From IMG/VR virus record IMGVR_UViG_3300042888_001661, positions 1 through 61,362 of that record: a stretch of DNA of 61,362 nt; one strand, 5' to 3'. Numbering within the stretch: position 1 is the first letter of the stretch; every line of letters begins with the position of its first letter. Both the position numbers and the translations under genes were made by a program. Source of the stretch: a virus. Positions 11,252-53,819 of the stretch are shown here, one piece after another. Below the pieces are notes generated by a model that saw nothing but the letters and a program-made list of their open reading frames with translations, was not told the origin of the DNA and did not search any database.

Positions 11252-11280
11252 TTGATCAAAAGTTCAAAACAGGATAAAAT
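11252..11280 (+). promoter_or_regulatory. Sigma70-type promoter, leaderless layout
   Basis: TTGATC (11252-11257), 17-bp spacer, TAAAAT (11275-11280). The ATG of the next gene is at 11286, only 5 bases after the -10, so transcription should begin at or beside the start codon. It lies in the divergent gap opposite gp14. Confidence 0.6.
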
Positions 11281-11285
11281 ACTAT

Positions 11286-11540
11286 ATGGAAGATCTATTA
11301 CAGCGTATAGCTCAAGCAGAACGACAGATAGCCGCGGTGCGTAACCGGGCAGCAAGACGAGACTTAGTCAAGATGCTAAAGCCCATTGCTCTAATCCAAC
11401 AAAAACTCAGCCAAGAAAGTGTAGAATGCCGCAGGCTACATCGACCCACTGCCCGCTACCAAACCTTGGAACAAGAGGCTGAAGATTTGGTGAAAAATCT
11501 GGAAACGTACCTGTTATTTGCCTGTTTGCTTGGCGGTTGA
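11286..11540 (+). CDS. Small helical protein, unknown function
   Basis: 84 residues, highly charged and predicted helical or coiled coil (LLQRIAQAERQIAAVRNRAA ... YQTLEQEAEDLVKNLETYL), ending in a short hydrophobic tail LLFACLLGG. No family is recognised. It begins only 5 bases after a good -10 box, so it is probably read from a leaderless message. Its position opposite the neck genes suggests middle or early expression, but no function can be assigned. Confidence 0.6.
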   Translation: MEDLLQRIAQAERQIAAVRNRAARRDLVKMLKPIALIQQKLSQESVECRRLHRPTARYQTLEQEAEDLVKNLETYLLFACLLGG

Positions 11541-11565
11541 CTACAAACGAACTCAGTGTTACAAT
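11537..11565 (+). promoter_or_regulatory. Sigma70-type promoter with extended -10
   Basis: TTGACT (11537-11542), 17-bp spacer, TACAAT (11560-11565) preceded by TG at 11557-11558. The predicted start near 11572 gives a leader of about 20 bases to ATG 11593, with an AAGGA ribosome site at 11582-11586. Confidence 0.7.
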
Positions 11566-11592
11566 TAACAATCATGCAATCAAGGATACCCA

Positions 11593-12744
11593 ATGGTAAA
11601 AACTAAAAAACCCACCACAGAAATCAAGCTACTAAATCCAAAGAGTGCCGACGTAAAGTACACTGGCTCCGAACCTGCCTGGAAGTTGGTCTTGACCGAC
11701 GGAGATAGAACCAGTGCCATGCTCAAGTCCTTTGCCTGGTACAACTATCACTACAGTAAAAAAGATGCCAAAGACATGATTGCTCATTGGCTTGAACACA
11801 ATGACAGATCTCGAGACGCCAAACTCATAAGAGGAATTCCAGATAGCCAAATTCGTAGCACCACAGCCTGGGTATGCAGGATGAATCTGATTGGTCTAGC
11901 TCTAAGCGAACATGAACTCAGCGTGATTGACAGCCAGATCAGTGACATGATGCGTATCAAGCAAGAAGTGGTTCGAGTCGTGACCGAAGAAGAAACAGTA
12001 CAAGCTCGCTTGACCATACAAGATCATTTGCGTGAGCGCATGAGTGAGTGTGCTGGTGAACTAGAAGGCCTGTTTGATGATTTCCTACAACAAGGTGCAA
12101 AGCTGACAGCCGAGTTCAAACCCATGTCACACATCCGTGGCAGGAATGTGGCACCACAGATGATTGGCACTATCAGTGCCATCTGGAAAGATCGCCTGTC
12201 AGAGTTTGAAGAAACTGTAGAAGGACGTGATGCAGATCTAGTGGAAGCATACAGTCATCTTTCCAAGATACAGTTGCGTAATTGCGTAAAATTCTGCGAA
12301 CTGGTAATCAATGACTGTGCCAGTTATGTACAGATTAAAAAGGTAGAACGTAAACCTCGTGCCAAGAAAGCCATCAGTCCTGAAAAGTTATCCAGCAAGT
12401 TCAAATATCTCAAAGATTTTGCAGAACTCAAACTGGTATCCGAAGCACCAGCCAGTCTGGTCAATGCGTCAGAGGCCTGGTTATACGATACCAAAAAACG
12501 CAAGTTGATACATGTGCTAGCCGATGCTCATGTGGGATCATTCACCGTAAAAGGAACCAGTATCGTGGCTTTTGATGCAGTCAATAGCTCGCAGAAGACC
12601 CTACGCAAGCCAGCTGAACAGATTAAATCTATTGTGTCAGTTGGAAAACCTGCGGCCAGAAAAGTGTACAAAGATATAAAAAGCACAGAAATTCGATTCA
12701 ACGGACGTGGCAACGAGAACTTGATCATACTCAAGTCCTGGTAG
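11593..12744 (+). CDS. Conserved-type phage protein, unknown function
   Basis: 383 residues, soluble. The N-terminal third contains SFAWYNYHYSKKDAKDMIAH and a helical segment. The middle is helical with many acidic residues. The C-terminal part (from about 270) is beta-rich and basic: FKYLKDFAELKLVS, EAWLYDTKKRKLIHVLA, and a final EIRFNGRGNENLIILKSW. No catalytic motif is recognised. The start is supported by AAGGA 6 bases upstream and a strong sigma70 promoter at 11537. It precedes gp13 but is driven separately, so a nucleic-acid-associated rather than virion role is possible. That is inference. Confidence 0.8.
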   Translation: MVKTKKPTTEIKLLNPKSADVKYTGSEPAWKLVLTDGDRTSAMLKSFAWYNYHYSKKDAKDMIAHWLEHNDRSRDAKLIRGIPDSQIRSTTAWVCRMNLIGLALSEHELSVIDSQISDMMRIKQEVVRVVTEEETVQARLTIQDHLRERMSECAGELEGLFDDFLQQGAKLTAEFKPMSHIRGRNVAPQMIGTISAIWKDRLSEFEETVEGRDADLVEAYSHLSKIQLRNCVKFCELVINDCASYVQIKKVERKPRAKKAISPEKLSSKFKYLKDFAELKLVSEAPASLVNASEAWLYDTKKRKLIHVLADAHVGSFTVKGTSIVAFDAVNSSQKTLRKPAEQIKSIVSVGKPAARKVYKDIKSTEIRFNGRGNENLIILKSW

Positions 12745-12751
12745 CATACTT

Positions 12752-12759
12752 GATAAATA
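12752..12759 (+). promoter_or_regulatory. T4-type late promoter box for gp13
   Basis: GATAAATA, one base from the T4 late consensus TATAAATA, lies 19 bases before the gp13 ATG at 12779. An AGGAG ribosome site (12767-12771) sits between them. Confidence 0.6.
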
Positions 12760-12778
12760 GTTGTATAGGAGCGACGGT

Positions 12779-13549: not shown

Positions 13550-13583
13550 TTGGTTAAGAATAAATAACGTACATAATAGGATA

Positions 13584-14414: not shown

Positions 14415-14456
14415 TCATTGAATAATCCAGTGGTAAAAATGTTTGTGGTTGTATAA

Positions 14457-14603: not shown

Positions 14604-14616
14604 ATTAAAGGAAAAT

Positions 14617-15504: not shown

Positions 15505-15532
15505 ATTTTTATATAAAAAAGGAAAGTAGAAA

Positions 15533-15874: not shown

Positions 15875-15886
15875 TAGAAAGCACAT

Positions 15887-16783: not shown

Positions 16784-16833
16784 TGTTTTTGGCTAACACG
16801 CTAACCTTTTTACAACACTGATACCAAAATTTC

Positions 16834-16842
16834 TGTTATACT
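16834..16842 (+). promoter_or_regulatory. Extended -10 promoter before the exonuclease relic
   Basis: TGTTATACT (TG at 16834, TATACT 16837-16842) lies 6 bases before ATG 16849. No good -35 is visible at 16-18 bp. The short -10-to-ATG distance matches the intact copy at 17598. Confidence 0.5.
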
Positions 16843-16848
16843 TGTAGC

Positions 16849-16908
16849 ATGGCAGATTTAATGATAGACCTTGAAGGATTGGGCACAGGACCGGATACCG
16901 TTCAATAA
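16849..16908 (+). pseudogene. 5' remnant of a second DexA-like exonuclease gene
   Basis: From ATG 16849 the frame reads MADLMIDLEGLGTGPDTVQ and stops at 16906. It aligns with the start of the intact exonuclease at 17598 (MSSIMIDIETIGVAPAATIL) and keeps the first D-x-E metal motif. The DNA differs, so it is a diverged homologue rather than a simple duplication. The break falls just before the convergent GIY-YIG endonuclease gene, suggesting a homing or replacement event. Confidence 0.65.
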
Positions 16909-16912
16909 TACA

Positions 16913-17485
16913 TTATTCTAAGTAATCAGATAATTTACGAGTTAGATCTCTAGCTCTCTTTTTAGCACTTATTATTGCCCTGGTTTCAGCTGTTTGAACT
17001 CTTCCTTTTTGTCCATTGCTAATTTTTTGTTTATGTTCGGCGGTTAGCACTCTACCTTTTAAAGTTTTACTTCTTTTAAGATTTGATTCAGCAGTTTGTT
17101 TTTTATTTTGATTATGTAGTCTAAGTTTATTCTTAGATTCCTCTGTCCAAATTCTTTCTCGATTAGATTTAATACAAGCCAATTTTCTTTTTTCTGATGG
17201 TACCGCATTACTACATCCATCACCTCCGTCGGTCATGTTTCGCAAAATTCCAGTTCCTAAATCTTTACGCCCATACCATCTAATAAGTTGTCGTTCAATA
17301 GCAAGAGCACCAACATCTGATAAATTAGCCTCAACTATGACAATACGATAATTGTCTGTTGGAATTTTAACATTATGAGCCTTTGCCCAGGCTCTGCTAC
17401 CAGTGCCTTTGCCAATATAGTACGGAGTTAGTTCTTTTTTACGCAGGTATGCGTAGACATAGAATTTGAGCTGATAAGTATTCAT
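16913..17485 (-). CDS. GIY-YIG homing endonuclease with NUMOD3 repeats
   Basis: 190 residues from ATG 17485. The GIY-YIG core is [20 protein letters not shown], with R in the next helix (SRAWAKAH), E in [11 protein letters not shown] and [11 protein letters not shown]. The C terminus carries NUMOD3-type DNA-binding repeats ([26 protein letters not shown]). ATG 17485 has AAAGGA upstream; a longer frame reaches 17557. It is AT-rich, on the minus strand, and wedged between a truncated exonuclease start and an intact exonuclease. Confidence 0.85.
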
Positions 17486-17562
17486 GCTGATAGTTCCTTT
17501 ATAACTATTAGAGTCGGTGGATATTCCCGTATCGCGATCGACACTCTTATTTACCATAACGG

Positions 17563-17591
17563 TTGATATTTTTTAGCTGTTAGCATATAAT
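17563..17591 (+). promoter_or_regulatory. Strong sigma70 promoter for the exonuclease gene
   Basis: TTGATA (17563-17568), 17-bp spacer, consensus TATAAT (17586-17591). ATG 17598 is 6 bases downstream with no room for a ribosome site, so the mRNA is probably leaderless. Confidence 0.75.
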
Positions 17592-17597
17592 GTTAAT

Positions 17598-18122
17598 ATG
17601 AGCTCAATAATGATTGACATCGAAACCATTGGGGTGGCACCTGCTGCTACTATTTTAACTATAGCTGCCCAATCATTTGACCCTTTGGGTACAGGATACT
17701 ATAAACAACATTACTATGCTAGGGTTTCATTAGAAAGTCAGGAAAATCGAACCATTGATGATAGTACTTTAAATTGGTGGGCAACCCAGCCTGCTGATGC
17801 ACGAGATGAAGCATTTTGTGAACAAGATCGTATTCCGTTAGATCAGGCACTAGATGAATTAGGCAAACTAATTTGGACCAGTAAATTTTTGTATTGTCAA
17901 GGTCCCACATTTGATTGTACAATTCTAGAACATGCCTACAAGAGCTATGGCAAACCCATACCCTGGCAATATTACAACGTTCGTGACAGTCGCACTGTGT
18001 TCAGCCTATGGCCTGGCCTGCCCAAACCCGCCACCAGTCACCATGCACTAGAAGACTGCCGAAGACAAATTGCATTGTTACAAACAACTTTACAACACTT
18101 CAACATTAAGGAATTGGTATGA
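17598..18122 (+). CDS. dexA: DnaQ-fold 3'-5' exonuclease (T4 DexA-like)
   Basis: 174 residues with a DEDDh active site: D7 and E9 in MIDIETIG, D106 in QGPTFDCTIL, and H148-x4-D153 in SHHALEDCRR. It also has the family segment TIDDSTLNWWATQPADAR (compare STIEWWKNQ of T4 DexA). T4 DexA degrades ssDNA from 3' ends; a similar DNA-degrading role is likely. The gene starts 6 bases after a consensus -10 box and overlaps the dNMP kinase by 4 bp (ATGA), so the two nucleotide-metabolism genes are coupled. Confidence 0.8.
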   Translation: MSSIMIDIETIGVAPAATILTIAAQSFDPLGTGYYKQHYYARVSLESQENRTIDDSTLNWWATQPADARDEAFCEQDRIPLDQALDELGKLIWTSKFLYCQGPTFDCTILEHAYKSYGKPIPWQYYNVRDSRTVFSLWPGLPKPATSHHALEDCRRQIALLQTTLQHFNIKELV

Positions 18123-19070: not shown

Positions 19071-19083
19071 ACTGTACTTATGA

Positions 19084-25119: not shown

Positions 25120-25563
25120 ATGGCCAACTTTAGACAAGGCATATACATTCCACAAAATCCACAGAAGTACGTGGGCCGCGGCAATATAAAATACAGATCT
25201 GGATGGGAAATGACTTTCATGATGTTCCTGGACAGCAACGACAACGTGCTACAATGGGCCAGCGAAAGCATTAGAATTCCTTACAGACATCCCCTAACCG
25301 GCAAGATGACCAACTATGTGCCAGACTTCCTGGTCACATATCGCGGTCCAAACAATACCACTGTGGCTGAACTGATAGAAATCAAACCCAAGAAACAAAG
25401 CCTGCTTGAAAGCAAAATGAACGACCGTGATAGAGCCATTGTGGCTGTTAACTACTGCAAATGGGATGCCGCGACCAAATGGGCCAAGGCACAAGGTCTA
25501 CGTTTTCGCGTAGTGACAGAGGATGATATATTTCACCAAGGTAACAAAAAACGCGGTAAATAG
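25120..25563 (+). CDS. 4: Head completion protein (gp4-like, nuclease fold)
   Basis: 147 residues. YIPQNPQKYVGRGNIKYRS, GWEMTFMMFLDSNDNVLQWA, ESIRIPYRHPLTGKMTNYVP and D-F-L ... ELIEIKPKKQSL are hallmarks of the gp4/gp50 head-completion family. It has a TnsA/PD-(D/E)XK-type core, visible here as E52, D-F and E-x-K (ELIEIKPK). In T4 the protein acts after packaging so that tails can join. It lies 3 bp before the small terminase gene. Confidence 0.85.
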   Translation: MANFRQGIYIPQNPQKYVGRGNIKYRSGWEMTFMMFLDSNDNVLQWASESIRIPYRHPLTGKMTNYVPDFLVTYRGPNNTTVAELIEIKPKKQSLLESKMNDRDRAIVAVNYCKWDAATKWAKAQGLRFRVVTEDDIFHQGNKKRGK

Positions 25564-31643: not shown

Positions 31644-32780
31644 ATGACCAACTTCTATTGCGCAGCCCCCTGGCGGGGCTTGCATATCAACCCGCGCGGT
31701 GATGTAAAAACCTGCTGTGCTGGCAATCCCAACATGCTGGGCAATCTCAATACACAAACCATTGAACAGATACTTAATAGTTCGCTTATGGCCAAAATCC
31801 GCACCAGTCTGGCACAGGGCAAACCGCATGACTACTGTTCTAATTGTGTGAGAGCAGAAAGATTTGGTGCTGACAGCGAACGGCAATGGCACAACAATGT
31901 GAATCCTGGCTTTGACTATGCCACAGCCGGAGATCAATACCACTATCCTGTGATTGTAGATGTACGCTGGAACACCACTTGTAATCTGAGTTGTAACTAC
32001 TGTGGCGAAGCATGCAGTAGCAAATGGGCCGCAATCAAAGGTATTCCATTCAAGTCCGGAGCAAGACCTTATTACGATGCAGTATGTGATTTTATTGCTG
32101 AACATTACGAACACATACATGAAGTGGCCTTGGTTGGTGGCGAACCTTTGTTGTTGCCAGAAAACGAACGTCTGCTAGATGTCATACCCCAGGATGCCAT
32201 AGTTACACTGATTACTAATCTCAGTGTTGATTTAGAAAACAATAAAATTTTTAAAAAGCTATGCAATAGATCCCGGGTAGGCTGGAGTATGAGTTTTGAC
32301 AACACAGGTGATCGACTGGAATATGTCAGACACGGAGCCAAATGGGATCAAATACAGCAAAACTTGTCCACTATCAAAGGACTTATGAAGTCGCAAGGCC
32401 AATGGGGCGGCATACATGCAGTATACAATATTTACAATGCCACACGCATTTGTGAGTTGCGTGAGTTTGCTGAACAAACCGGAACCACTGTGCTATGGCA
32501 AAACTTGTTTCAACCCGAATATCTTGATCCGTTTTTGCATGGACCCAGAGTTGCGCTAGAGGCCATTGCCGAGATTGAACGTTTTTATGCCATGAACATT
32601 GCAACACCCGCAGAAAAATCATTCTTTGATCAGGCCTTGACCAATTATCATGCTGTGACCCAAGCCAGAAACGGCATTGAACACCAGTTTGCACAACATA
32701 TTCAACGGATTGAAACCCAATATCACCCTGCCACACAAGGACAGTTTGCCCGATTGTGGCCTGAACTGGCAACGCTATGA
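31644..32780 (+). CDS. Radical SAM protein with twitch/SPASM-like domain, copy 1
   Basis: 378 residues. The 4Fe-4S/SAM motif CNLSCNYC is near residues 114-121 (CxxxCxxC), followed by VALVGGEPLLL, the SAM-contacting GGE motif. Before the core lies a Cys-rich block, FYCAAPWRGLHINPRGDVKT CC, with GNPNMLGNL and DYCSNC, resembling the SPASM/twitch auxiliary cluster region but placed N-terminally. It ends FARLWPELATL. Such enzymes modify peptides, RNA or small molecules; no substrate is evident. It overlaps copy 2 by 4 bp (ATGA). Confidence 0.8.
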   Translation: MTNFYCAAPWRGLHINPRGDVKTCCAGNPNMLGNLNTQTIEQILNSSLMAKIRTSLAQGKPHDYCSNCVRAERFGADSERQWHNNVNPGFDYATAGDQYHYPVIVDVRWNTTCNLSCNYCGEACSSKWAAIKGIPFKSGARPYYDAVCDFIAEHYEHIHEVALVGGEPLLLPENERLLDVIPQDAIVTLITNLSVDLENNKIFKKLCNRSRVGWSMSFDNTGDRLEYVRHGAKWDQIQQNLSTIKGLMKSQGQWGGIHAVYNIYNATRICELREFAEQTGTTVLWQNLFQPEYLDPFLHGPRVALEAIAEIERFYAMNIATPAEKSFFDQALTNYHAVTQARNGIEHQFAQHIQRIETQYHPATQGQFARLWPELATL

Positions 32781-33916
32781 CAATCTTAAAGAGCCCTACA
32801 TTTTGTTCTGCACCCTGGACCAGTTTAAATATTGATCAAACTGGTCGAGTAAGTCCTTGCTTTCACTGCCGTAGTGTGGTAGGCAATATCAAAGAGACGT
32901 CTATTCAAGAAGTTATCCATGGACCTGCATTAACAAGCATGCGCGAACACATGGCTCGTGGAGAATGGTACCCAGGATGTAGCTGGTGCAAAGAACTTGA
33001 AGAAACCACAGGCGTCAGTGGGCGTACAGTTCGATCTGCAAGCGAGCAAACTTTGAAAGCTATCGAGCATGATCCAGTTGATTATTTTGAACTACAACAC
33101 ATTGTGGTCAACTGGAGCAATTTGTGCAATCTTGCCTGTACCTATTGCAATCCCGATACCAGTACAGCCTGGCAAAGCATCAAGGGTATTCCTATTAACC
33201 ATGTCAAAAACGAACATCCAGATTTAATTGAATTGATTCAAACACAAGGACACACTGTAAAAGGGCTGGCATTGGGTGGTGGTGAACCGCTTTTGCAAAA
33301 AGGTCTCGTGGATTTTTTGCAATATCTTGTGCCCGAGCAGGTGCAAGTGTTGGTTACGACTAATCTCAGCATTGACATTACCAACAACCCCATATACAAT
33401 GAACTACGCACCTGGCCAGGAGTACAGTGGCAAATCAGTTTTGACAATGTCAACAAAGATAAATTTGAATATGTCCGACATGGTGCCACGTGGGAAACTT
33501 TTGTTGACAATATTAAAATCATGAAACAGCATGGGCAACGTGTAGTGGCACATCCTGCATATAGCATATATTGTGCTATGGATTTGGTTGAGTATTATGA
33601 ATTTTGTATTGCGTACCAACTTGATTTATTCTGGTGCGAACTGATACATCCACAACATCTGGATGTAAGACGCTATTCAGAGTCAATACGACAACAAGCC
33701 ATTGCGGAAATTGATCGAGTGGTGGAAAAATACAGTGATCATAAGAATCTGGCCATAGACACCTTGAAACGTTACCGTATGACCCTGGTAGACAATAGTT
33801 ATCTTTATAAATTTCCAGAGTTTAACCCTCCACAGTTTCATGAAACAAAGGAACGAGAACTAAAAACAGCGCATACATTTGCACAACTATGGCCAGAACT
33901 GGAAAATCAAATATGA
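32777..33916 (+). CDS. Radical SAM protein with twitch/SPASM-like domain, copy 2
   Basis: 379 residues, a tandem paralogue of copy 1 with the same order: Cys block FCSAPWTSLNIDQTGRVSPC and GCSWCKELEE, then radical SAM motif CNLACTYC, GLALGGGEPLL, and QISFDNVNKDKFEYVRHGA (copy 1: MSFDNTGDRLEYVRHGA). It ends FAQLWPELENQI. The copies share perhaps a third of residues by eye, so they diverged long ago and probably act on different sites or as a pair. It is coupled by ATGA to both neighbours. Confidence 0.8.
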   Translation: MTILKSPTFCSAPWTSLNIDQTGRVSPCFHCRSVVGNIKETSIQEVIHGPALTSMREHMARGEWYPGCSWCKELEETTGVSGRTVRSASEQTLKAIEHDPVDYFELQHIVVNWSNLCNLACTYCNPDTSTAWQSIKGIPINHVKNEHPDLIELIQTQGHTVKGLALGGGEPLLQKGLVDFLQYLVPEQVQVLVTTNLSIDITNNPIYNELRTWPGVQWQISFDNVNKDKFEYVRHGATWETFVDNIKIMKQHGQRVVAHPAYSIYCAMDLVEYYEFCIAYQLDLFWCELIHPQHLDVRRYSESIRQQAIAEIDRVVEKYSDHKNLAIDTLKRYRMTLVDNSYLYKFPEFNPPQFHETKERELKTAHTFAQLWPELENQI

Positions 33917-34755: not shown

Positions 34756-36304
34756 CACTGAAAGTGTACTGGTCAAAGCACCATACCGTCGCACAGTATT
34801 CACGGAACAGCAATTGGCCGAGTTTATCGCCTGTGCTGATCCTGAGACTGGTCCAGAGTATTTCATGGATAACTTCTTTCATATACAACATCCTACTCGA
34901 GGAAAAATGTTGTATCATCCGTTTGAATATCAAAAACGCCTGATCCACACCTATCACAACTACAGATTCAGCATCAGCATGATGCCCAGGCAAACTGGTA
35001 AAAGTACCAGTGCTGCTGGGTACCTGTTATGGATGGCCATGTTTCACCCAGATTCAACCATCCTGATCGCCGCACACAAGTACACTGGCTCACAGGAGAT
35101 CATGCAACGTATCCGTTATGCTTATGAACTGTGCCCAGATCATATTAGAGCTGGAGTGACCAGCTACAACAAAGGTAACCTAGACTTTGAAAACGGATCA
35201 AGAATAGTATCAACTACCACAACTGAAAACACTGGCCGGGGTATGAGTATATCACTCTTGTACTGTGACGAGTTTGCGTTTGTGCGACCCACTATAGCTA
35301 AAGAATTTTGGACATCCATAAGCCCTACCTTGGCAACTGGTGGTAAGGCAATTATTACAAGTACACCAAACAGTGATGAAGATCAATTTGCCCTGCTTTG
35401 GAAGGGTGCTAACAAGTGTGAAGATAGCTATGGTAATCCTACAGAAATGGGCGTGAATGGATTCCGAGCATATCGCAGTTACTGGAATGAACATCCTGAT
35501 CGTGATGAGACCTGGGCCTCGGAACAACGGGCACAACTGGGCGACGATCGATTCAGACGTGAAATGGGCTGTGAATTTTTAATCTTTGATGAGACCTTGA
35601 TTGCACCAGCCAAACTGGTTGAAATGACTGGCTCAGAACCCACTCACATGATGGGACAGGTACGCTGGTATCAAACACCCAAGAAAGATAGAATCTACAC
35701 AGTTGCTCTAGATCCCAGTCTGGGCACCGGCGGAGACAATGCAGCCATACAGGTATTTGAAGCCAACACCACCGAACAGATTGCTGAATGGAAACACAAT
35801 CGCACACCTATACCCGAACAGATCCGGTTGTTGGCGTCTATATGTAATCACCTAAACGAAACTGTACAAAATCCAGAAAGCATATACTACAGCGTGGAAA
35901 ACAATACCATTGGTGAAGCGGCCTTGATCAGTATAAATCAGTATGGCGAAGAAAATATCAAAGGATACTTTTTGTCCGACCGAAGCAATAACAGTTACCG
36001 GAAAGGGTTTAACACCACAAACAAGAGCAAACTCACTGCCTGTAGCAAGTTAAAAACTCTGATTGAAACGGGCAAAATGAAAGTACGCAGTAGATCTTTG
36101 ATCAGCGAGCTCAAAACCTTTGTAGCAAGTGGACTGGGATATGCAGCCAAAGTGGGCGAATCAGATGATTTGGTCATGAGTACAATCCTGGCAGTAAGAA
36201 TGATGCAACAGTTACAGGGCTATCACCCAGAAATGGACAAACAGTTGCGAGATTTTGCTGATACCTACATACCTCCTATGCCGTTCATAGCAACCATGCG
36301 CTAA
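34739..36304 (+). CDS. 17: Terminase large subunit (gp17-like)
   Basis: 521 residues. The ATPase domain has Walker A MPRQTGKST (82-90), Walker B SLLYCDEFAF (D177, E178) and the coupling motif ITSTPNS (206-212). The nuclease domain has VALDPSLGTGGDN, a YYSVENNT strand and a late DDLVMS acidic pair, giving the RNase H-like metal centre. T4 gp17 has 610 residues; this is a compact version. It packages DNA into the head. It follows the SGNH gene with an overlap, not gp16 as in T4. Confidence 0.92.
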   Translation: MPTPNNTESVLVKAPYRRTVFTEQQLAEFIACADPETGPEYFMDNFFHIQHPTRGKMLYHPFEYQKRLIHTYHNYRFSISMMPRQTGKSTSAAGYLLWMAMFHPDSTILIAAHKYTGSQEIMQRIRYAYELCPDHIRAGVTSYNKGNLDFENGSRIVSTTTTENTGRGMSISLLYCDEFAFVRPTIAKEFWTSISPTLATGGKAIITSTPNSDEDQFALLWKGANKCEDSYGNPTEMGVNGFRAYRSYWNEHPDRDETWASEQRAQLGDDRFRREMGCEFLIFDETLIAPAKLVEMTGSEPTHMMGQVRWYQTPKKDRIYTVALDPSLGTGGDNAAIQVFEANTTEQIAEWKHNRTPIPEQIRLLASICNHLNETVQNPESIYYSVENNTIGEAALISINQYGEENIKGYFLSDRSNNSYRKGFNTTNKSKLTACSKLKTLIETGKMKVRSRSLISELKTFVASGLGYAAKVGESDDLVMSTILAVRMMQQLQGYHPEMDKQLRDFADTYIPPMPFIATMR

Positions 36305-36314
36305 ATACAACACC

Positions 36315-38687: not shown

Positions 38688-38716
38688 TTGCAATAAAAAG
38701 TAGTGCATGCTATAAT
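38688..38716 (+). promoter_or_regulatory. Sigma70 promoter with extended -10
   Basis: TTGCAA (38688-38693), 17-bp spacer, TATAAT (38711-38716) preceded by TG at 38708-38709. ATG 38722 is 5 bases later. The string TATAATAACAC recurs at 38794. Confidence 0.7.
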
Positions 38717-38721: not shown

Positions 38722-38868
38722 ATGCGCCCGACAGGCAACCCAAATAAAAAAAGTAATTTAACCAGTTTTGTAGCAAACACAATCAGTGATGTGTATAATA
38801 ACACTGTAGGCAACCATTTAAGGCAACTTAAATCAATCATATTAAATCAACTCGGAAAGGCAACATAA
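38722..38868 (+). CDS. Small 48-residue protein upstream of gp32
   Basis: ATG 38722 opens 48 codons: MRPTGNPNKKSNLTSF, then VANTISDVYNNTVGNHL and a basic end ILNQLGKAT. It stops at TAA 38866, one base before the gp32 ATG. It has no ribosome site but starts 5 bases after a strong extended -10, like other leaderless genes here. It may be a real small protein or a leader peptide coupled to gp32. A second TATAAT (38794) inside it could drive gp32 alone. Confidence 0.5.
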   Translation: MRPTGNPNKKSNLTSFVANTISDVYNNTVGNHLRQLKSIILNQLGKAT

Positions 38869-38869
38869 T

Positions 38870-39850
38870 ATGGCATCCTTAGCAGAAATCAGAGCAAGAC
38901 TAGCAGCATCAGAAAACAAACCAGGCAGTGGTGGATCCGGCGGCGATGGATCAATTTATCCACACTGGAACATGGAAGAAGGTCAGTCGGCCACACTACG
39001 CTTCCTACCAGACGGCAACACTAAAAACACATTCTTTTGGGCAGAACGGGCCATGATCCGATTGCCATTCAATGGCGTCAAAGGTGAGATGGAATCCAAA
39101 CAAGTTTTTGTACAAGTACCTTGCGTGGAAATGTGGGGAGACACTTGTCCAGTACTTACCGAAGTAAGAACCTGGTTCAAGGACAAGAGCCTGGAAGATA
39201 TGGGTCGTAAGTATTGGAAGAAACGCAGTTACATTTTCCAAGGCTTTGTGCGTGAGAATCCCTTGCACGATGACAAGACACCGGCCAACCCAATCCGTAG
39301 ATTTATCATTGGTCCTCAGATCTTTACCATTATCAAAGGTGCCTTGATGGATCCAGAATTAGAAGAATTGCCAACAGACCTGTTGCGTGGCCTGGACTTC
39401 CGTATTACCAAAGGCGCCAAAGGTGGCTTTGCTGACTACAACAGCAGTAAGTGGAGCAGAAAAGAAAGTGCCTTGACTGAAGTGGAACAGGCGGCCATTG
39501 CTGAACACGGCTTGTATGATCTTGGATCGTTCTTGCCCAAGAAGCCAACTGACGTTGAACTCAAGATTGTCAAAGAAATGTTTGAAGCAAGTGTTGATGG
39601 TCAGAGTTATGACACCGAGCGTTGGGGTACTTACTTCAGACCAGCAGGTGTATCTGCTCCAGCAGGCGCAACTCCAGCAGTGGAAACTGATGAAGATGCT
39701 CCGGCACCAGTGGCTAAACCAGCACCGGTTGCGACCAGCAACTTTGATGACGATGAACCAGCAGTGGCCACAGCACCAGTTGCGGCAAAAGCATCCACAG
39801 ACAAGGCTCAAGATATCTTGGCCATGATCCGTAGCCGTCAAAAAGCGTAA
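38870..39850 (+). CDS. 32: Single-stranded DNA-binding protein (gp32-like)
   Basis: 326 residues. The N-terminal basic cooperativity segment is ASLAEIRARLAASENKP. The OB-fold core has IYPHWNMEEGQSATLRFLPD, FFWAERAMIRLPF, RSYIFQGFV and PIRRFIIGPQI. The C-terminal third is acidic and Ala/Pro-rich, ending DKAQDILAMIRSRQKA, which recruits partners in T4. The zinc site is altered: T4 has C-x9-C-x2-C, whereas here PCVEMWGDTCPVL lacks the last Cys, so zinc is probably not bound. GGAAAGG upstream is the ribosome site. Confidence 0.9.
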   Translation: MASLAEIRARLAASENKPGSGGSGGDGSIYPHWNMEEGQSATLRFLPDGNTKNTFFWAERAMIRLPFNGVKGEMESKQVFVQVPCVEMWGDTCPVLTEVRTWFKDKSLEDMGRKYWKKRSYIFQGFVRENPLHDDKTPANPIRRFIIGPQIFTIIKGALMDPELEELPTDLLRGLDFRITKGAKGGFADYNSSKWSRKESALTEVEQAAIAEHGLYDLGSFLPKKPTDVELKIVKEMFEASVDGQSYDTERWGTYFRPAGVSAPAGATPAVETDEDAPAPVAKPAPVATSNFDDDEPAVATAPVAAKASTDKAQDILAMIRSRQKA

Positions 39851-42630: not shown

Positions 42631-42652
42631 CCCTACTAAGTGGGGTTTTTTT
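42631..42652 (+). terminator. Rho-independent terminator after uvsY
   Basis: CCCTAC (42631-42636), loop TAA, GTGGGG (42640-42645; one U-G pair), followed by seven Ts. It ends the gp32-uvsX-uvsY transcription unit. A new promoter begins 5 bases later. Confidence 0.8.
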
Positions 42653-42656
42653 ATGG

Positions 42657-42685
42657 TTGACCCCAAATGCTTTTTAGCTTATAAT
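42657..42685 (+). promoter_or_regulatory. Sigma70 promoter, first of two similar copies
   Basis: TTGACC (42657-42662), 17-bp spacer, consensus TATAAT (42680-42685). It shares its -35 flank (ggttgaccc) and TATAATAG with the second promoter 114 bp downstream. Confidence 0.8.
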
Positions 42686-42691
42686 AGCTTT

Positions 42692-42760
42692 ATGAAATCA
42701 AGTGCTGTAGACCTAGCGTTTACGGAGTGTTGTTTTTATGCAACACTCAAAAAACAGTAG
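42692..42760 (+). other. Short transcribed leader with mini-ORF and hairpin
   Basis: ATG 42692, 6 bases after the -10, opens a 22-codon frame (MKSSAVDLAFTECCFYATLK ...) to TAG 42758. Inside is a perfect hairpin: GAGTGTTG (42725-42732), loop TTTTTATG, CAACACTC (42741-42748). The segment lies between two near-identical promoters and could be a small RNA, an attenuator or a tiny leaderless peptide. It occupies the only non-genic stretch of more than 200 bases in this part. Confidence 0.35.
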
Positions 42761-42770
42761 AATACAGTGG

Positions 42771-42799
42771 TTGACCCAAAATACGCCATTTGTTATAAT
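42771..42799 (+). promoter_or_regulatory. Sigma70 promoter with extended -10 for the AAA ATPase gene
   Basis: TTGACC (42771-42776), 17-bp spacer, TATAAT (42794-42799) preceded by TG at 42791-42792. The expected start near 42806 gives a 25-base leader with an AGGAG site (42819-42823) before TTG 42831. Confidence 0.8.
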
Positions 42800-42830
42800 A
42801 GTAGTATAGTAACTAAACAGGAGCAGAAAA

Positions 42831-43934: not shown

Positions 43935-43942
43935 AATAAATA
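43935..43942 (+). promoter_or_regulatory. Late-type box before the AT-rich cassette
   Basis: AATAAATA lies 4 bases before ATG 43947. It matches the ATAAATA core of the other late boxes. With the terminator just upstream, it is the likeliest promoter for the three-gene cassette. Confidence 0.45.
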
Positions 43943-45901: not shown

Positions 45902-46608
45902 GCCAGTTAATGGCTAAAAAATATATTGAATATCAATATCAATTGCCTGAATACAATTCAATGGCAGACTTTAATTGGATACAATCTTGGTCAGGACTAC
46001 CATGGTTGCCGTTAACTTTATCAATCCCGCATGAATCTATTTTGGCAGAAATTAAAAATATAGAACCATTACTGTCAATACATCGTGATGACTATGGTGA
46101 GCATTTTGGGTGGAAGAGTTTTTGCATTCATGGTAAAGCATATAACGCCACTAGAGAAACTGAATACTACGCAGACCATCGCCCATACAACTGGACACAA
46201 GAAGCACAAACACTTATGCCTGCAACTGTTGACTATTTTAAAACACAATGGCCAGGCGATCAATTTGGGAGATTACGTGTTATGCTTTTAGAGCCCGGGG
46301 GGTATGTAAGCATTCATCAAGACTACACAACCCCAGGGCTAACTGCAATTAATATTGCTATAACTCAACCTATTGGTTGTAATTTTGTTATGGAGAAAAA
46401 AGGAACTGTGCCGTTTGCTCCAGGTACAGCTTTTTGGTTGGATATTTCCAATAATCATACCGTTTTTAATAATAGTGATCAAAATCGTTGGCATATTATT
46501 GTCCATCAAAATATTAAAAATCTAAAATTTCAAGAAGAGGTTGTAAAATCTTACAATACAATGTATAATAATTACAATGAGAACAGCCACAATAATCATA
46601 CGAGATGA
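45883..46608 (+). CDS. Aspartyl/asparaginyl beta-hydroxylase-like 2OG-Fe(II) oxygenase, cassette gene 3
   Basis: 241 residues. The double-stranded beta-helix core is visible: RLRVMLLEPGGYVSIHQDYT with the H-x-D iron pair, INIAITQPIGCNFVMEKKGT, PFAPGTAFWLDISNNHTVFN and the distal NRWHIIVHQ with the third His and nearby Arg for 2OG. Family members hydroxylate Asp/Asn in proteins or small molecules. The substrate may be a protein made or modified by its cassette partners. Its 3' end carries the uvsW promoter. Confidence 0.75.
   Translation: MQKQKISQLMAKKYIEYQYQLPEYNSMADFNWIQSWSGLPWLPLTLSIPHESILAEIKNIEPLLSIHRDDYGEHFGWKSFCIHGKAYNATRETEYYADHRPYNWTQEAQTLMPATVDYFKTQWPGDQFGRLRVMLLEPGGYVSIHQDYTTPGLTAINIAITQPIGCNFVMEKKGTVPFAPGTAFWLDISNNHTVFNNSDQNRWHIIVHQNIKNLKFQEEVVKSYNTMYNNYNENSHNNHTR
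46541..46569 (+). promoter_or_regulatory. Sigma70 promoter for uvsW, leaderless layout
   Basis: TTGTAA (46541-46546), 17-bp spacer, TATAAT (46564-46569), 7 bases before ATG 46577. It lies inside the end of the beta-hydroxylase gene. No ribosome site is visible before the uvsW start. Confidence 0.65.
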
Positions 46609-48037
46609 AGTCAACGTCAAGATAGAAGGCTTAGAACTTGATGCTCGCCGTGCCCTAGTTAACGCATTCAAGTATGATGTTCCGGGTGCTAGATATCTTC
46701 CTGCTGTTAGACTAGGCAGGTGGGATGGCAAGGTCAGTTACTTCCAGTTAGGCGGTAGCAGTTATGTAAACCTACTGCCCGAGATCATTCCTATCTTGGA
46801 AAAGTTCAATTATGATATTGAACTGGATGACCAAAGAGAGTACAGCACCACATTTGAATTTTCTGAAGTGACAGAAAGCACATTCAGTCACATTGCCTGG
46901 GGCAAGGGTCATCCGTTAGAAGGTCAACCCATGGTCATGCGTGACTACCAAGTGGAAGTGATCAATCGCTTCCTGGCCAATCCACAATGCATACAAGAAA
47001 TAGCAACCGGCGCTGGTAAAACAGTAATCACAGCTGCCTTGAGCAATGCCGTGGCACCGCATGGACGTACGATCATCATTGTTCCAAATAAAAGCCTGGT
47101 AACACAAACAGAACGAGACTACATCAACATGCAACAGGATGTGGGTGTGTTTTTTGGAGACCGCAAGGAGTGGGGTCGCCAGCATACCATCTGTACTTGG
47201 CAAAGTTTAAATGTGCTATTAAAAAACACCAAGAACAGCGTGGGCGATGTCACCATACAAGAGTTCTTGGAAGATGTAGTATGTGTCATTGTTGATGAAG
47301 TACACATGGCCAAGGCCGACGCATTAAAGACCTTGTTAACTGGTGTCATGAGCCGTGTGCCATTGCGCTGGGGACTCACAGGAACTGTGCCCAAGGAACC
47401 CTACGAATTCCAAGCACTCAAATGCAGTCTCGGCCCGGTTATCAATCAGCTCAGTGCCAGCGAACTACAGGACCGTGGTGTACTGGCACAATGCCATGTA
47501 AATGTGGTGCAGTTGGTAGACCATGCTGAGTTTACCAACTATCAAAGTGAATTAAAGTTCTTGTTAGAAGAACCCGATCGACTCAAGACCATGGCTGGAT
47601 TAATAGCACAGGTCAACGCCACAGGCAATACCTTGGTGTTAGTAGACCGTGTGGCCGCAGGACATGCCTTGGCTGAACTGCTAGGCGAAGCGGCAGTATT
47701 TGTATCAGGAGCAACCAAAGCAAAGGCCAGACAGGATGAATACGATGAGATTAGCGTCAGTAGTGGTAAGATTATTATTGCTACCTATGGCATTGCTGCT
47801 GTTGGTATTAATATTCCTAGGATATTCAATCTTGTGCTTATTGAACCGGGCAAATCCTTTGTCAGGGTTATACAGTCGATCGGGCGGGGCATTCGCAAGG
47901 CCGAAGACAAAGACCACGTGGAAATCTGGGACGTGACCAGCACTTGCAAGTTTGCAAAAAGACACCTGACCAAACGCAAAGTATTTTATAAGGAAGCCAA
48001 CTATCCATTCACACAAGAAAAGCTGGAATGGAAATGA
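46577..48037 (+). CDS. uvsW: DNA/RNA helicase (UvsW)
   Basis: 486 residues. The N-terminal domain (VRLGRWDGKVSYFQLGGSSY) is the UvsW-specific DNA-binding part. SF2 motifs follow: Q-motif MRDYQVEVINRF, Walker A ATGAGKT (143-149), DEVH (240-243), LTGTVPK, and motif VI VIQSIGRGIRK. UvsW unwinds R-loops and branched DNA and ends origin-type replication in T4. It overlaps the beta-hydroxylase gene by 32 bp but has its own promoter. Confidence 0.92.
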   Translation: MRTATIIIRDEVNVKIEGLELDARRALVNAFKYDVPGARYLPAVRLGRWDGKVSYFQLGGSSYVNLLPEIIPILEKFNYDIELDDQREYSTTFEFSEVTESTFSHIAWGKGHPLEGQPMVMRDYQVEVINRFLANPQCIQEIATGAGKTVITAALSNAVAPHGRTIIIVPNKSLVTQTERDYINMQQDVGVFFGDRKEWGRQHTICTWQSLNVLLKNTKNSVGDVTIQEFLEDVVCVIVDEVHMAKADALKTLLTGVMSRVPLRWGLTGTVPKEPYEFQALKCSLGPVINQLSASELQDRGVLAQCHVNVVQLVDHAEFTNYQSELKFLLEEPDRLKTMAGLIAQVNATGNTLVLVDRVAAGHALAELLGEAAVFVSGATKAKARQDEYDEISVSSGKIIIATYGIAAVGINIPRIFNLVLIEPGKSFVRVIQSIGRGIRKAEDKDHVEIWDVTSTCKFAKRHLTKRKVFYKEANYPFTQEKLEWK

Positions 48038-48723
48038 CAACTGTGTACTCGTTAGGGTGCAGTTTCATGAGTTCAGACACTCGTTGGCCTGAGCAACCCA
48101 GTTTCCTAGATCAGTATGCTGACTATCGTGGGTGGCAACATGTGAGTCTAGCCAGACCTGGAGCCACCAACTTGTGCATACATCTGCAGATAGAACGTGC
48201 CATACAGGATCATGCCGATTATGTCATAATAGGTGCAACCAGCAGTGACCGTATTGACGTCGCAGGCAACGCCTACAGTCAAAACTTGCCCATTAGATTA
48301 GATCTGATACACTATGCCAACTATCATGCTGCCAGCGAACAGTGGGTCGATCACACACAGGCCTGTATCATAAGTGATACACTCAACAACGTAATCGAGC
48401 ACAGCTATACGGATTTAGATGTTACAACAAAAAACACCGTCAAGCAATACCTACGTGATGTACACAACTTTGATATAGAAGATCGACGAAACTACTACAT
48501 CATTCGGGACGGACTACGCGAACTTGAGCGGGCTGGCATTCCGTATTTGTTCATTCCAGGCCCGTTGTTTTATTTTGATTGGTCAGGATTCTCAGTCTGG
48601 CAAGGCACACAACCCTGGGACATGCCCGACGGAGTTGGAACCAGAATAATCAATCATAATCCACCCAGCGCACACAAGAAGTTTTTTGATCTTGTTGTGC
48701 AACAAACAGCCGAATGGGCTTGA
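48028..48723 (+). CDS. SGNH-hydrolase-like protein 2
   Basis: 231 residues. Block I is VYSLGCSFMSSDTRWPEQPS, again GCS rather than GDS. LARPGATNLCIHLQIERAIQ has the Gly block, and the C-terminal NHNPPSAHKKFFDLV supplies a His, though the usual D-x2-H Asp is not obvious. Catalysis is therefore less certain than for the protein at 33913. It overlaps uvsW by 10 bp; a second ATG at 48034 would give an ATGA overlap and is equally plausible. Confidence 0.65.
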   Translation: MEMTTVYSLGCSFMSSDTRWPEQPSFLDQYADYRGWQHVSLARPGATNLCIHLQIERAIQDHADYVIIGATSSDRIDVAGNAYSQNLPIRLDLIHYANYHAASEQWVDHTQACIISDTLNNVIEHSYTDLDVTTKNTVKQYLRDVHNFDIEDRRNYYIIRDGLRELERAGIPYLFIPGPLFYFDWSGFSVWQGTQPWDMPDGVGTRIINHNPPSAHKKFFDLVVQQTAEWA

Positions 48724-48746
48724 CTTTTACCTTTAATTACTATAAT
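48720..48746 (+). promoter_or_regulatory. Sigma70-type promoter, short spacer
   Basis: TTGACT (48720-48725) and TATAAT (48741-48746) with a 15-bp spacer, shorter than optimal. ATG 48755 follows 8 bases later with no ribosome site between. Confidence 0.5.
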
Positions 48747-48754
48747 ATACAACT

Positions 48755-49258
48755 ATGCGGATCCTTACCTTAGACAACAATACAGCATTTGATCTTGACC
48801 ATCTTCCAGAAGAAGTAGATGATATGAGATTTGCCATCCTGGACAATTCAAACCCACAAGATCCAGACTATCATTACATACCCTTGATCTTTCTGGAGAG
48901 TTTTACTGCGCCAGCTTTGGTATTGAGAATAGGTAACAACAAGATACGCATGCCTGTAGACTGGCAGATCTTGATTGGAGAACCCGATCTGGGCGATCTC
49001 GAAGTGTTGCCACTCACTGCAATCAATGATCGAGGATTCAAGGCATTCCAGTTCAATCCACTTACCAGCTTCCGTCCTAGCTTTTTGGATATTGAAATTG
49101 TGGATGTGTATCAAGAGATGTCCTGGTATGCTCCTAAATTAAAAAATGGACAGATGTTGTGTGTGCCAGTCACCGAAGGAGATCGACCTGACTGTGTGTA
49201 TTTTGTCAAAGACATCAGTCGTAACTGTGAAATTGTAGATTATAACAAGGCTTGGTAA
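48755..49258 (+). CDS. Conserved T4-like phage protein of the uvsW block
   Basis: 167 residues, beta-rich: YHYIPLIFLESFTAPALVLR, IRMPVDWQILIGEPDLGDLE, VLPLTAINDRGFKAFQFNPL and CVYFVKDISRNCEIVDYNKA. The same protein is well conserved in marine T4-like phages near uvsW and gp55 genes, but I know of no function. Strong conservation suggests a core role in replication or late transcription (inference). A leaderless start is likely. Confidence 0.8.
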   Translation: MRILTLDNNTAFDLDHLPEEVDDMRFAILDNSNPQDPDYHYIPLIFLESFTAPALVLRIGNNKIRMPVDWQILIGEPDLGDLEVLPLTAINDRGFKAFQFNPLTSFRPSFLDIEIVDVYQEMSWYAPKLKNGQMLCVPVTEGDRPDCVYFVKDISRNCEIVDYNKAW

Positions 49259-49259
49259 T

Positions 49260-49983: not shown

Positions 49984-49984
49984 C

Positions 49985-51237: not shown

Positions 51238-51589
51238 TCGATTTACGTTTGGATTTTTTACGGGCCATTTCAAGCAAGCTGCAAACGGGTCCATGTAGCA
51301 CAGCTAAATCTTTGTTGATAAAAGTGCGCAGACAAGGTCTGAACTGATCCCATTCTGTTTTGAGGAATATGTTGATGGGTATGGTCCTGTTGCTTTCCCA
51401 CCACCAAACATTGGCTAGTTCTAAGAAACGACGTTTATCTTCTAGATCTTGTATGCTACCAAAGTCATAAATCGTAGTCACAATTTCGTCTTGATTTTGT
51501 ATGATTCCCACATATTCTGTAGTAGCATAAACACAGAGGGAGATAAAAGGGTACTTGTCAGCCAGTTGGGCAAAGATATCATTACCCAT
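51212..51589 (-). CDS. Conserved T4-like phage protein, unknown
   Basis: 125 residues: MGNDIFAQLADKYPFISLCV, YATTEYVGIIQNQDEIVTTI, RFLELANVWWWESNRTIPIN and a basic C terminus ARKKSKRKSITLVRRLD. Proteins nearly identical in plan occur in cyanophages and pelagiphages; no function is known. It is convergent with the DnaE-like gene, overlapping it by 26 bp. Its upstream region (51590-51610) is extremely AT-rich and contains possible -10 boxes. Confidence 0.75.
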   Translation of the reverse strand: MGNDIFAQLADKYPFISLCVYATTEYVGIIQNQDEIVTTIYDFGSIQDLEDKRRFLELANVWWWESNRTIPINIFLKTEWDQFRPCLRTFINKDLAVLHGPVCSLLEMARKKSKRKSITLVRRLD

Positions 51590-51686
51590 AAATATTATAT
51601 AATAAATTGATCACGAGATATTTACCAAAAATGAATCCAACCCAAACGAATGAGTCACCGGATGACACCGCCGCTAAATAGTATGT

Positions 51687-52835
51687 ATGTACTCAACCAC
51701 CCTATATCTGTACCAACAAATAACCCAGGTCCTGAGCATAGACACCGGCGCTGGTTCCACATTCACCTACAGGTATAATCCCGTGTACGCCAAAGTCCTA
51801 ACCATAAACAAAGGCATCGACAATGTGTTGCTGTTTGAGTTTATCAATCAAAATGAAAAACCGGTCAATATCACTGGCAGTAGTTTTGTGTTCCGTGTGA
51901 TCAACACTGAAGGAACCACTGTATTGCTAGAAGAGCCCTTGGTTGCACTCAATGCTGCCACAGGCCGGGCCAAGGTCACTTTGTTGACCAGTCAGTTGTT
52001 GACAGTGCTTGCTCAACCAGCCTTTTATAGTATAACTAGAGCCAGTGGAAACTTGATAGAACCAGTATTTGTTGATGCCCAGTCGGGCGGTCGTGCACCT
52101 CTTAACATAGTGGACAGTGTGTTGCCACAGTATGTGCCCAGTGCTCCACTTACTATACCCACAGTCAAGCTCTCGGCACAAGGATCAGCAGATGGCACCA
52201 GTTTTGGAAACGCCGGCGGAGACTATTATTGGAATGGTAACCCCAACGGAGCCAACTATTTTAACAGTTTTGCTCTTACCGAATACTACAGCAGTTTTAT
52301 TACACCCAGACAAGGCATTACTACCATACAAATGACCCTGGATGGCTATACAGGCACAATCAAGGCACAGGCAGCTGCTGACTACGAAAGTGTACCGTAC
52401 AACGTGACCGAAAGTACTACCTATCTCAATGAGACCAGTACCATTTATCTCAATGTGATTGGTTGGCATCCACTATTGCGAGTATGTTTCAACAACAGTA
52501 TCTTTGCTGTGCCTGGTGGTCAAGGCATACCGGCACAGGCCACTGCCATCTGTGAAGACGGTGTAGTGACCAGTATCAACGTTATCAATGCTGGTAACGG
52601 TTATTTGGCTCCGCCCCGGATCAGCATTGTGGGCGAAGGTGCCGGTGCCACTGCTACTGCCACCATAGGTGGCGATGGCGAAATAGCAAGTATCACAGTG
52701 ACTGACGGCGGATCTGGTTATTGGTTTGCACCCAATGCCGGAATCAACACACCTTATTATCCGGTGCCTGCCAACAACCAAGGTGCCGCAGTGGTGATCA
52801 GCACTGGCTATGTAGTGGACCTTTTCTATAGGTAA
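51687..52835 (+). CDS. Virion structural protein, unknown
   Basis: 382 residues, beta-rich and low in Lys: VYAKVLTINKGIDNVLLFEF, INQNEKPVNITGSSFVFRVI, FVDAQSGGRAPLNIVDSVLP and a C-terminal Gly-rich repeat region INAGNGYLAPPRISIVGEGA / GSGYWFAPN. Similar proteins in marine T4-like phages are counted as virion proteins. A CTAAATA box (51675-51681) lies 5 bases before the ATG. The 97 bases before it are AT-rich and include CATAAATA at 51587. Confidence 0.65.
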   Translation: MYSTTLYLYQQITQVLSIDTGAGSTFTYRYNPVYAKVLTINKGIDNVLLFEFINQNEKPVNITGSSFVFRVINTEGTTVLLEEPLVALNAATGRAKVTLLTSQLLTVLAQPAFYSITRASGNLIEPVFVDAQSGGRAPLNIVDSVLPQYVPSAPLTIPTVKLSAQGSADGTSFGNAGGDYYWNGNPNGANYFNSFALTEYYSSFITPRQGITTIQMTLDGYTGTIKAQAAADYESVPYNVTESTTYLNETSTIYLNVIGWHPLLRVCFNNSIFAVPGGQGIPAQATAICEDGVVTSINVINAGNGYLAPPRISIVGEGAGATATATIGGDGEIASITVTDGGSGYWFAPNAGINTPYYPVPANNQGAAVVISTGYVVDLFYR

Positions 52836-52848
52836 ATGCAAAAAATCG

Positions 52849-52857
52849 TGCTATAAT
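52849..52857 (+). promoter_or_regulatory. Extended -10 promoter for primase, leaderless layout
   Basis: TGCTATAAT (TG 52849-52850, TATAAT 52852-52857), 5 bases before ATG 52863. No clear -35 is seen, which extended -10 promoters can tolerate. Confidence 0.6.
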
Positions 52858-52862
52858 AAAGC

Positions 52863-53819
52863 ATGATTGATGTGATCGCTTTCTTACCTGGCAAACGCAA
52901 ACAAACCAGTAGTGGTTGGATTTCAGTAAATGCACCTTGTTGTGTACATCGTGGAGAATCAGCTGACCGACGATTGCGTGGCGGCATAAAAAATACAGAT
53001 ACAGGCTGGAATTGGCATTGTTTCAATTGTGGATACACCGCCAGTTTTGTACTTGGGCGCACACTCACCTTCAAGGCCCGCAAGTTATTGTCATGGTTGA
53101 ATGTGCCACAAGAAGAAATTGAACGTATCAATCTTGAAAGCCTTAGACATAAAAACATCGAAGGCATACTGAACGAACGACAACAGGCTGTTCGACCAGT
53201 TGAGATAGAATTTGAAGAATGCGATTTACCAGCCGACACTGAGGAACTGACAGACACAGCCCGAGCATATTTGACCAACCGCGGTATCATGTTAGACTAT
53301 CCATACCTGTCCAAGCGAGGAACAAGACCTGGCATTGTTGTGCCATTTACCCACGATAATCAGATAGTTGGACACACTACAAGATTTTTAGATGATAGAA
53401 CACCCAAATATATCCAGGACATACAGCCAGGATATGTGTTTGGCACAGACCTACAACGTAACAATTGGCAATCAGTGATTGTTGTAGAAGGAGTATTTGA
53501 TGCACTCAGCGTCAACGGTGTGGCTGTGCTACACGCAGACATAAATGATGCACAGGTCAGATTGATAAGAAGTCTTGAACGAGAAATAGTTGTTGTGCCA
53601 GATCAAGATGTACCGGGCATGCGATTGGTAGAACGTGCAGTTGAACTAGGTTGGTCAGTCAGCATGCCCGAATGGCCAGCGGGAATCAAAGATGTGAATG
53701 ATGCAGTAATTTGTATGGGAAGGTTGGCCACTTTGCTAACTATAATGCGATACAAAGAAACCAGTCGAATTAAAATAGAACTAAGGAAAAAACAACTTGT
53801 TAAAAGATTACGGACTTGA
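52863..53819 (+). CDS. 61: DNA primase (gp61-like)
   Basis: 318 residues. The N-terminal zinc-binding domain has PCCVHRGE and WHCFNCGYTA (C26/C27, H29, C53, C56). A Toprim catalytic core follows: VIVVEGVFDALSVNG with the catalytic Glu, then VVVPDQDVPG with the DxD-type acid pair, and AGIKDVNDA. Like T4 gp61 it should make RNA primers with the gp41 helicase, which is the next gene and overlaps it by 23 bp. Confidence 0.88.
   Translation: MIDVIAFLPGKRKQTSSGWISVNAPCCVHRGESADRRLRGGIKNTDTGWNWHCFNCGYTASFVLGRTLTFKARKLLSWLNVPQEEIERINLESLRHKNIEGILNERQQAVRPVEIEFEECDLPADTEELTDTARAYLTNRGIMLDYPYLSKRGTRPGIVVPFTHDNQIVGHTTRFLDDRTPKYIQDIQPGYVFGTDLQRNNWQSVIVVEGVFDALSVNGVAVLHADINDAQVRLIRSLEREIVVVPDQDVPGMRLVERAVELGWSVSMPEWPAGIKDVNDAVICMGRLATLLTIMRYKETSRIKIELRKKQLVKRLRT

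Follow-up and report, generated by a model that had tools for sequence, protein, structure and literature searches.

Promoters of two classes placed at start codons point to conserved leaderless expression in a clade of T4-related jumbo phages

We describe a promoter layout in a 61,362-nucleotide (nt) stretch of viral DNA, the whole of which we call the window and which corresponds to one 61 kb IMG/VR virus record (IMGVR_UViG_3300042888_001661). In this layout, promoters of the host sigma-70 type (TTGACA-17-TATAAT) and the TAAATA word of T4-type late promoters end only a few nucleotides ahead of the ATG of genes that have no Shine-Dalgarno (SD) site. The layout is real, and is more extensive than was described in an earlier sequence-only reading of the window. 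On the counts given below, this start-proximal placement is too frequent, and retained too faithfully among relatives, to be due to chance, and it is very probably explained by conserved leaderless expression from host-sigma-type and T4-type late promoters, operating alongside a normal SD mode.

Results

Judged by its sequence, the window derives from a T4-related jumbo phage clade. It carries T4-like genes for UvsW, a UvsX-like recombinase, SSB, primase, a DnaB-type helicase, the tail sheath and an exonuclease, and the isolated phages closest to it by UvsW are the jumbo phages Sinorhizobium phage Phosso (53%), Agrobacterium phage Atu_ph07 (49%) and the PA5oct group (48%). Environmental relatives are abundant, with at least 597 UvsW-encoding stretches and a top match of 98%; a near-identity search of a phage collection with the window gave no match. 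For genome-wide counts, 894 genes were called mechanically from the window and from three long related contigs that were read piecewise (G001, 337 kb; G002, 177 kb; G003, 149 kb), and the kinship of these four sequences means that the counts are not fully independent. For the counts of orthologs, upstream regions were clustered below 85% identity, and a close -10 box was scored at a match of at least five of six positions.

The sequence-only reading had listed eight -10 boxes lying 5-8 nt ahead of an ATG with no ribosome site between, and all eight are present as it described, with no SD at any of them. The gap between the -10 box and the ATG is 5 nt at 11286 (TAAAAT), 38722 and 52863, 6 nt at 16849 (TATACT), 17598 and 42692, 7 nt at 46577, and 8 or 6 nt at 48755. 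Its statement that most of these sites have a -35 element at 17 bp or an extended TG was also borne out, with -35 matches at 17 bp for 11286, 17598, 38722, 42692, 46577 and 48755, and the TG for 38722, 52863 and 16849. Sites of this class, with TTGACA/TATAAT-like hexamers at a spacing of 16-18 bp, have the make-up of sigma-70-type promoters, and the eight include two (17563 and 42657) of the three promoter sites that score 11/12. Five of the eight start codons (11286, 17598, 46577, 48755 and 52863) precede real genes. The other three open mini-ORFs (open reading frames) of 19 (16849), 48 (38722) and 22 codons (42692), which are unconvincing as genes and are taken up at the end.

Conservation is deepest at the primase gene (52863..53819, plus strand; phrog_47, E 1.8e-34), which is predicted to be leaderless. 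Its extended -10 element, TGC-TATAAT (52852..52857, plus strand), ends 5 nt before the ATG, and a close -10 is found in 42 of 44 divergent relatives, always at 5-6 nt, with an SD in none of the 44. The TTG of the -35 element, the TG and the TATAAT are the best-conserved columns among these relatives (0.88-1.00) while most of the spacer drifts, and the N-terminus MIDV is conserved from residue 1, the start codon being GTG in a few cases. A similar picture holds for a conserved 167-aa gene, also predicted to be leaderless (48755..49258, plus strand; phrog_11279), which is preceded by TTGACT-17-TAATAT (48720..48748, plus strand) ending 6 nt before its ATG, together with an overlapping TATAAT (48741-48746) that ends 8 nt before it. 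Here a start-near -10 is present in 65 of 69 divergent relatives (49 of them at 6 nt), SD-like words occur in 3/69, and the N-terminus of the product is again conserved from residue 1. For the predicted leaderless 3'-5' exonuclease gene (17598..18122, plus strand; PF16473, E 6.5e-36; phrog_255), whose TTGATA-17-TATAAT promoter (17563..17591, plus strand) ends 6 nt before the ATG, the corresponding figures are 29 of 39 relatives, 16 of them at 6 nt, with an SD in two.

The UvsW-type helicase gene (46577..48037, plus strand; phrog_16, E 7e-72) follows TTGTAA-17-TATAAT (46541..46569, plus strand), which ends 7 nt before its ATG; relatives align from residue 1, 21 of 68 have their own start-proximal promoter, and a single one has an SD. 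The fifth gene, encoding 84 aa and likewise predicted to be leaderless (11286..11540, plus strand), lies 5 nt behind TTGATC-17-TAAAAT (11252..11280, plus strand), and its ortholog in G001 (52% identity) shows TTGACT-17-TATAAT-7-ATG. Further start-proximal sigma-type genes are found in the relatives, and the N-termini of some resemble nucleases or a phosphatase by eye.

A second start-proximal set, which the sequence-only reading had overlooked, carries TAAATA 4-7 nt ahead of the ATG. At 11229, the start of a minus-strand virion protein gene (9856-11229), the word lies 7 nt upstream (11237..11242, minus strand), and CATAAATA is preserved in the G001 ortholog; the late-type class at this gene and the sigma-type class at the divergent 11286 face each other within 56 bp. 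TAAATA at 36302..36307 (plus strand) stands 7 nt before ATG 36315 of a virion protein gene (phrog_13484) and is conserved at 5-7 nt in the orthologs of G001, G002 and G003. At 51675..51680 (plus strand) it stands 6 nt before ATG 51687 of a gene for a 382-aa protein with structural-protein PHROG matches in its C-terminal part, and is conserved in the same three contigs. On the plus strand the word also occurs 4 nt before ATG 43947 (43937..43942) and 4 nt before ATG 25567 (25557..25562), where it is kept in G001. Additional long ORFs in the relatives carry the start-proximal late word as well. The TAAATA core is strongly over-represented at these positions and the first two bases of the T4 octamer, TATAAATA, are not fixed; a gp55-type sigma is encoded in G001 (271656-272477).

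Across the window and its three relatives, promoters ending 4-8 nt before a start number 29, 26 of them at 5-6 nt, against a shuffle mean of 6.6 (maximum 15 in 100 shuffles). The excess lies in placement: promoter-like sites as a whole are no more numerous than in shuffled sequence (46 vs 39.5; 33 vs 27.8). An unbiased ranking of hexamers 4-7 nt before the 894 starts returned SD words, TAAATA (53 vs 2.8 expected) and TATAAT (22 vs 2.7 expected), whereas reverse-complement control words were seen 4 times, with 4.7 expected. Both words are bimodal. TATAAT stands exactly 5-6 nt ahead of the start in 20 cases and, beyond a trough, peaks again at about 28-32 nt. TAAATA has 53 occurrences at 4-7 nt, few at 8-16 nt and 69 at 17-27 nt; a control region 15 times larger holds 42, and no further TAA-NNN word outside the SD words shows a similar enrichment. 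In all, 79 of the 894 genes, or about 9% of those in the sampled contigs, carry a start-proximal word. An SD is found in one of these 79 genes, as against 89 of the 124 genes that have a word at 16-36 nt.

The base before the ATG is a pyrimidine in 68 of the 79 start-proximal genes (86%), compared with 379 of 717 others (53%; P 4e-9). Transcription from sigma-70 promoters starts about 7 nt past the -10 box; for late promoters of T4 the start is some 6 nt past the octamer. The modal spacings of 6 nt (TATAAT) and 5 nt (TAAATA) therefore place the predicted +1 on the A of the ATG in both classes, and the preceding pyrimidine agrees with this, as expected for initiation with a pyrimidine at -1 and a purine at +1. 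The idea that transcripts start at or within 2-3 bases of the start codon thus has support at the level of the sequence, which predicts a start within about 2 nt.

The proposal that other genes follow a second, SD-based mode is likewise supported by the sequence, both modes being gene-specific and conserved. Among relatives of the tail sheath gene an SD is present in 30/30 and a close -10 in 0/30; for gene 42831 the counts are 22/22 and 0/22, and for gene 58680 an SD is found in 15/15 and a close -10 never. Other parts of the sequence-only reading were too narrow. It had tied the layout to replication and nucleotide genes, but late-word genes (53), structural genes included, outnumber TATAAT genes (22); and because late genes also have the layout, it is not confined to early infection. 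Nothing points to the particular exploitation of host ribosomes that had been suggested.

Weighing the leaderless reading

Several observations weigh against leaderless expression. Gene calls and start choice were mechanical, and although the start codon is ATG in 79/79 start-proximal genes, the gene caller prefers ATG. This leaves room for a reading in which the promoters are real and the start codons wrong, with translation beginning at a downstream SD-led codon behind an ordinary leader; the promoter at 38722, which probably serves ssb at 38870, fits such a scheme. An in-frame, SD-led ATG or GTG within codons 2-31 is, however, present in just 3 of the 79 genes, compared with 63 of 815 others (8%), and the N-termini of the primase and the 48755 product are conserved from residue 1. 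We consider wrongly called starts very unlikely as a general explanation.

Also unfavourable to the leaderless reading are the TAAATA words that overlap the stop codon of the upstream gene, and the many uvsW relatives, together with the G002 primase, that lack a promoter and lie close behind an upstream gene, again with no SD; the layout is therefore not obligatory. Both would suit AT-rich translation enhancers or stop-start coupling signals on transcripts arriving from far upstream, since several of the promoterless uvsW and primase relatives abut the preceding gene. Yet the early sites show a -35 element 17 bp away, frequently together with a TG, and the same words recur 17-32 nt ahead of other genes, which do carry an SD. 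The lack of comparable enrichment of other non-SD TAA-NNN words and the pyrimidine at -1 also count against such signals, which we regard as a very improbable source of the pattern. Two further points stand against leaderless expression: gp55 was not found in G002, G003, G005 or G006, all of which are fragments (the window was not among the contigs searched), and an RNA start displaced by 2-3 nt, or further transcripts arising upstream, may be compatible with the sequence.

Taking conserved leaderless expression as the best explanation, we envisage the following scheme. The host's RNA polymerase, carrying the housekeeping sigma, would act at the TTGACA-17-TATAAT sites, which among genes of known function serve mostly replication, repair and nucleotide genes. 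The TAAATA sites of structural and other genes would be used by polymerase carrying a phage gp55-type late sigma. In both classes the A of the ATG would be the first base of the RNA, give or take about 2 nt, and the AUG at the 5' end would be bound by a 70S ribosome that has not dissociated. Other genes would retain SD-bearing leaders of about 12-25 nt, so that every gene follows one of the two translation modes.

Comparison with other phages

No start-proximal excess of TATAAT or TAAATA was seen in T4, RaK2, S-PM2, P-SSM2, Phosso, Atu_ph07 or PA5oct (samples for S-PM2, P-SSM2 and RaK2), and SD words are the only hexamers raised at 4-7 nt in T4, PA5oct, Phosso and Atu_ph07. T4 has a late promoter, TATAAATA, read by the gp55 sigma, and the clade shares its TAAATA core and a gp55 homolog; but TAAATA lies 4-7 nt before the start in 0/250 T4 genes, whereas in the clade this is one of two preferred positions. 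Phosso, Atu_ph07 and PA5oct share orthologous genes with the clade, yet their orthologs of primase and of gene 48755 have other upstream layouts.

The cultured, T4-like Pelagibacter phage HTVC008M has TAAATA 4-7 nt before the ATG in 13 genes, 11 of them at exactly 5 nt (L502, L504, L505), the words at 5 nt occurring mostly as ATAAATAG. Unlike the clade, it is a smaller phage (Kyanoviridae) with another host and a weak early TATAAT peak (2 genes). As read from these upstream regions, at least two lineages of the T4 superfamily have either acquired the layout or retained it. The clade differs from seven other phages with an odds ratio of 9.8 (P 3e-20), a conservative test because HTVC008M, which itself has an excess, was counted among the others. 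These comparisons also bear on the notion that compact, AT-rich genomes place TATAAT and TAAATA near starts by accident, in favour of which one could cite the unremarkable whole-region promoter counts and the AT-rich PA5oct, where 5 such genes are found and 5.2 are expected by chance. Against 75 seen and about 10 expected in the clade, the seven other phages, six of which show no excess, and the deep conservation among orthologs, we judge accidental placement to be extremely improbable.

Among known systems, the lambda cI mRNA is leaderless and is initiated by 70S ribosomes on its 5'-terminal AUG (PMC9031893). It resembles the clade in having the RNA 5' end at the AUG (predicted, for the clade) and no SD, but concerns a single gene, whereas the clade has dozens of genes and two promoter classes. 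In the Thermus phages phiYS40 and P23-45 many transcripts begin at the initiation codon. Those phages are thermophilic, with a host rich in leaderless genes, while the clade is T4-related and jumbo, with a betaproteobacterial-type tmRNA in one relative. Leaders in the jumbo phage AR9 are 26-491 nt long. A search of an open-access library provisionally yielded no report of a start-codon promoter layout in jumbo phages or in phages like T4.

According to published work (PMC9031893), leaderless translation is held back by IF3 and favoured by initiator tRNA. IF3 is encoded by Phosso (W01 382560-382817) and Atu_ph07 (W02 256-501), both of which lack the layout, and was not found in the clade contigs, which are fragments, or in PA5oct. 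A link between a phage IF3 and the absence of the leaderless layout is suggestive only, and is no more than a lead because PA5oct has neither. Other factors were less informative: bS21 is present in every genome tested and hence does not discriminate; the CAT tRNA of G001, considered as a phage initiator tRNA, is by eye not initiator-like, its variable arm being long; and no match was obtained for RegB, by which T4 cuts at SD sites, but its control also matched nowhere, so its absence is not shown.

We put forward tentatively, at somewhat less than even chances, a wider proposal: that several aquatic T4-superfamily lineages (the jumbo clade and HTVC008M) independently moved promoters, mainly late ones, onto start codons, so that much of lytic gene expression would run through leaderless translation assigned gene by gene, perhaps tied to phage control of initiation, as with a phage IF3 where leaderless genes are absent.

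In proteobacteria and their phages, leaderless translation is commonly regarded as a marginal phenomenon, and here a very common environmental jumbo phage group appears to use it for essential replication genes and for late genes, beside SD-led genes. The coexisting modes amount to a conserved experiment of nature on what makes a gene leaderless, and the annotation of starts and promoters in such phages would change. The prediction of late promoters was reported to fail in pelagimyophages (PMC7029224), which start-proximal placement may explain, and HTVC008M offers a cultured system in which the leaderless reading is directly testable.

Weaker sites and neighbouring features

At 16849, TG-N-TATACT (16837..16842, plus strand) lies 6 nt before the ATG of the 19-codon ORF, whose peptide, MADLMIDLEGLGTGPDTVQ, resembles the N-terminus of the G001 exonuclease, MSTSLMIDIEGLATGPDATI. 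Since a homing-endonuclease-like (GIY-YIG-type) gene (16913..17557, minus strand; phrog_15526, phrog_314) separates it from the intact exonuclease at 17598, we read 16849 as probably the relic of an exonuclease start left by an insertion. The succession at 16849-17600 of a relic with its own close promoter, an endonuclease and an intact exonuclease is a likely trace of homing with co-conversion.

At 42692, TTGACC-17-TATAAT (42657..42685, plus strand) ends 6 nt before the ATG of the 22-codon ORF, and both the ATG and the 6-nt spacing are conserved across the five nearest relatives. A second, similar promoter (42771..42799, plus strand) follows in tandem and, as a contrast case, is the leadered promoter of gene 42831 (SD CAGGAG). 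Within this region (42650-42830) the ORF of the first promoter runs into a GTGTTG...CAACAC inverted repeat, an arrangement kept in the same five relatives.

The promoter at 38722 (TTGCAA-17-TATAAT with TG; 38688..38716, plus strand) ends 5 nt before the ATG of the 48-codon ORF, which sits inside the ssb leader and is found at only three other loci. As ssb (38870) also has an inner TATAATAACAC promoter copy upstream and an SD-like site, the promoter at 38722 is probably an extra, duplicated promoter of the ssb leader rather than one marking a gene start. Repeated AGGCAAC words occur in this leader (38722-38870) and in those of some 50 relatives, the last of them beside the start codon, and are a candidate site for control by SSB of its own translation.

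A scan of a genome collection for the host gave a single match, a 4.8-kb contig in a Bacteroidetes metagenome-assembled genome, which is weak as host evidence. G001 carries a permuted, betaproteobacterial-type tmRNA gene and several tRNAs (pieces L168 16326-17206 and L169 4247-5977), and this tmRNA hints at a host other than Bacteroidetes. Elsewhere in the window, 31644-33916 holds an adjoining pair of genes, the first of which (31644) has radical-SAM PHROG matches and the second a similar N-terminus.

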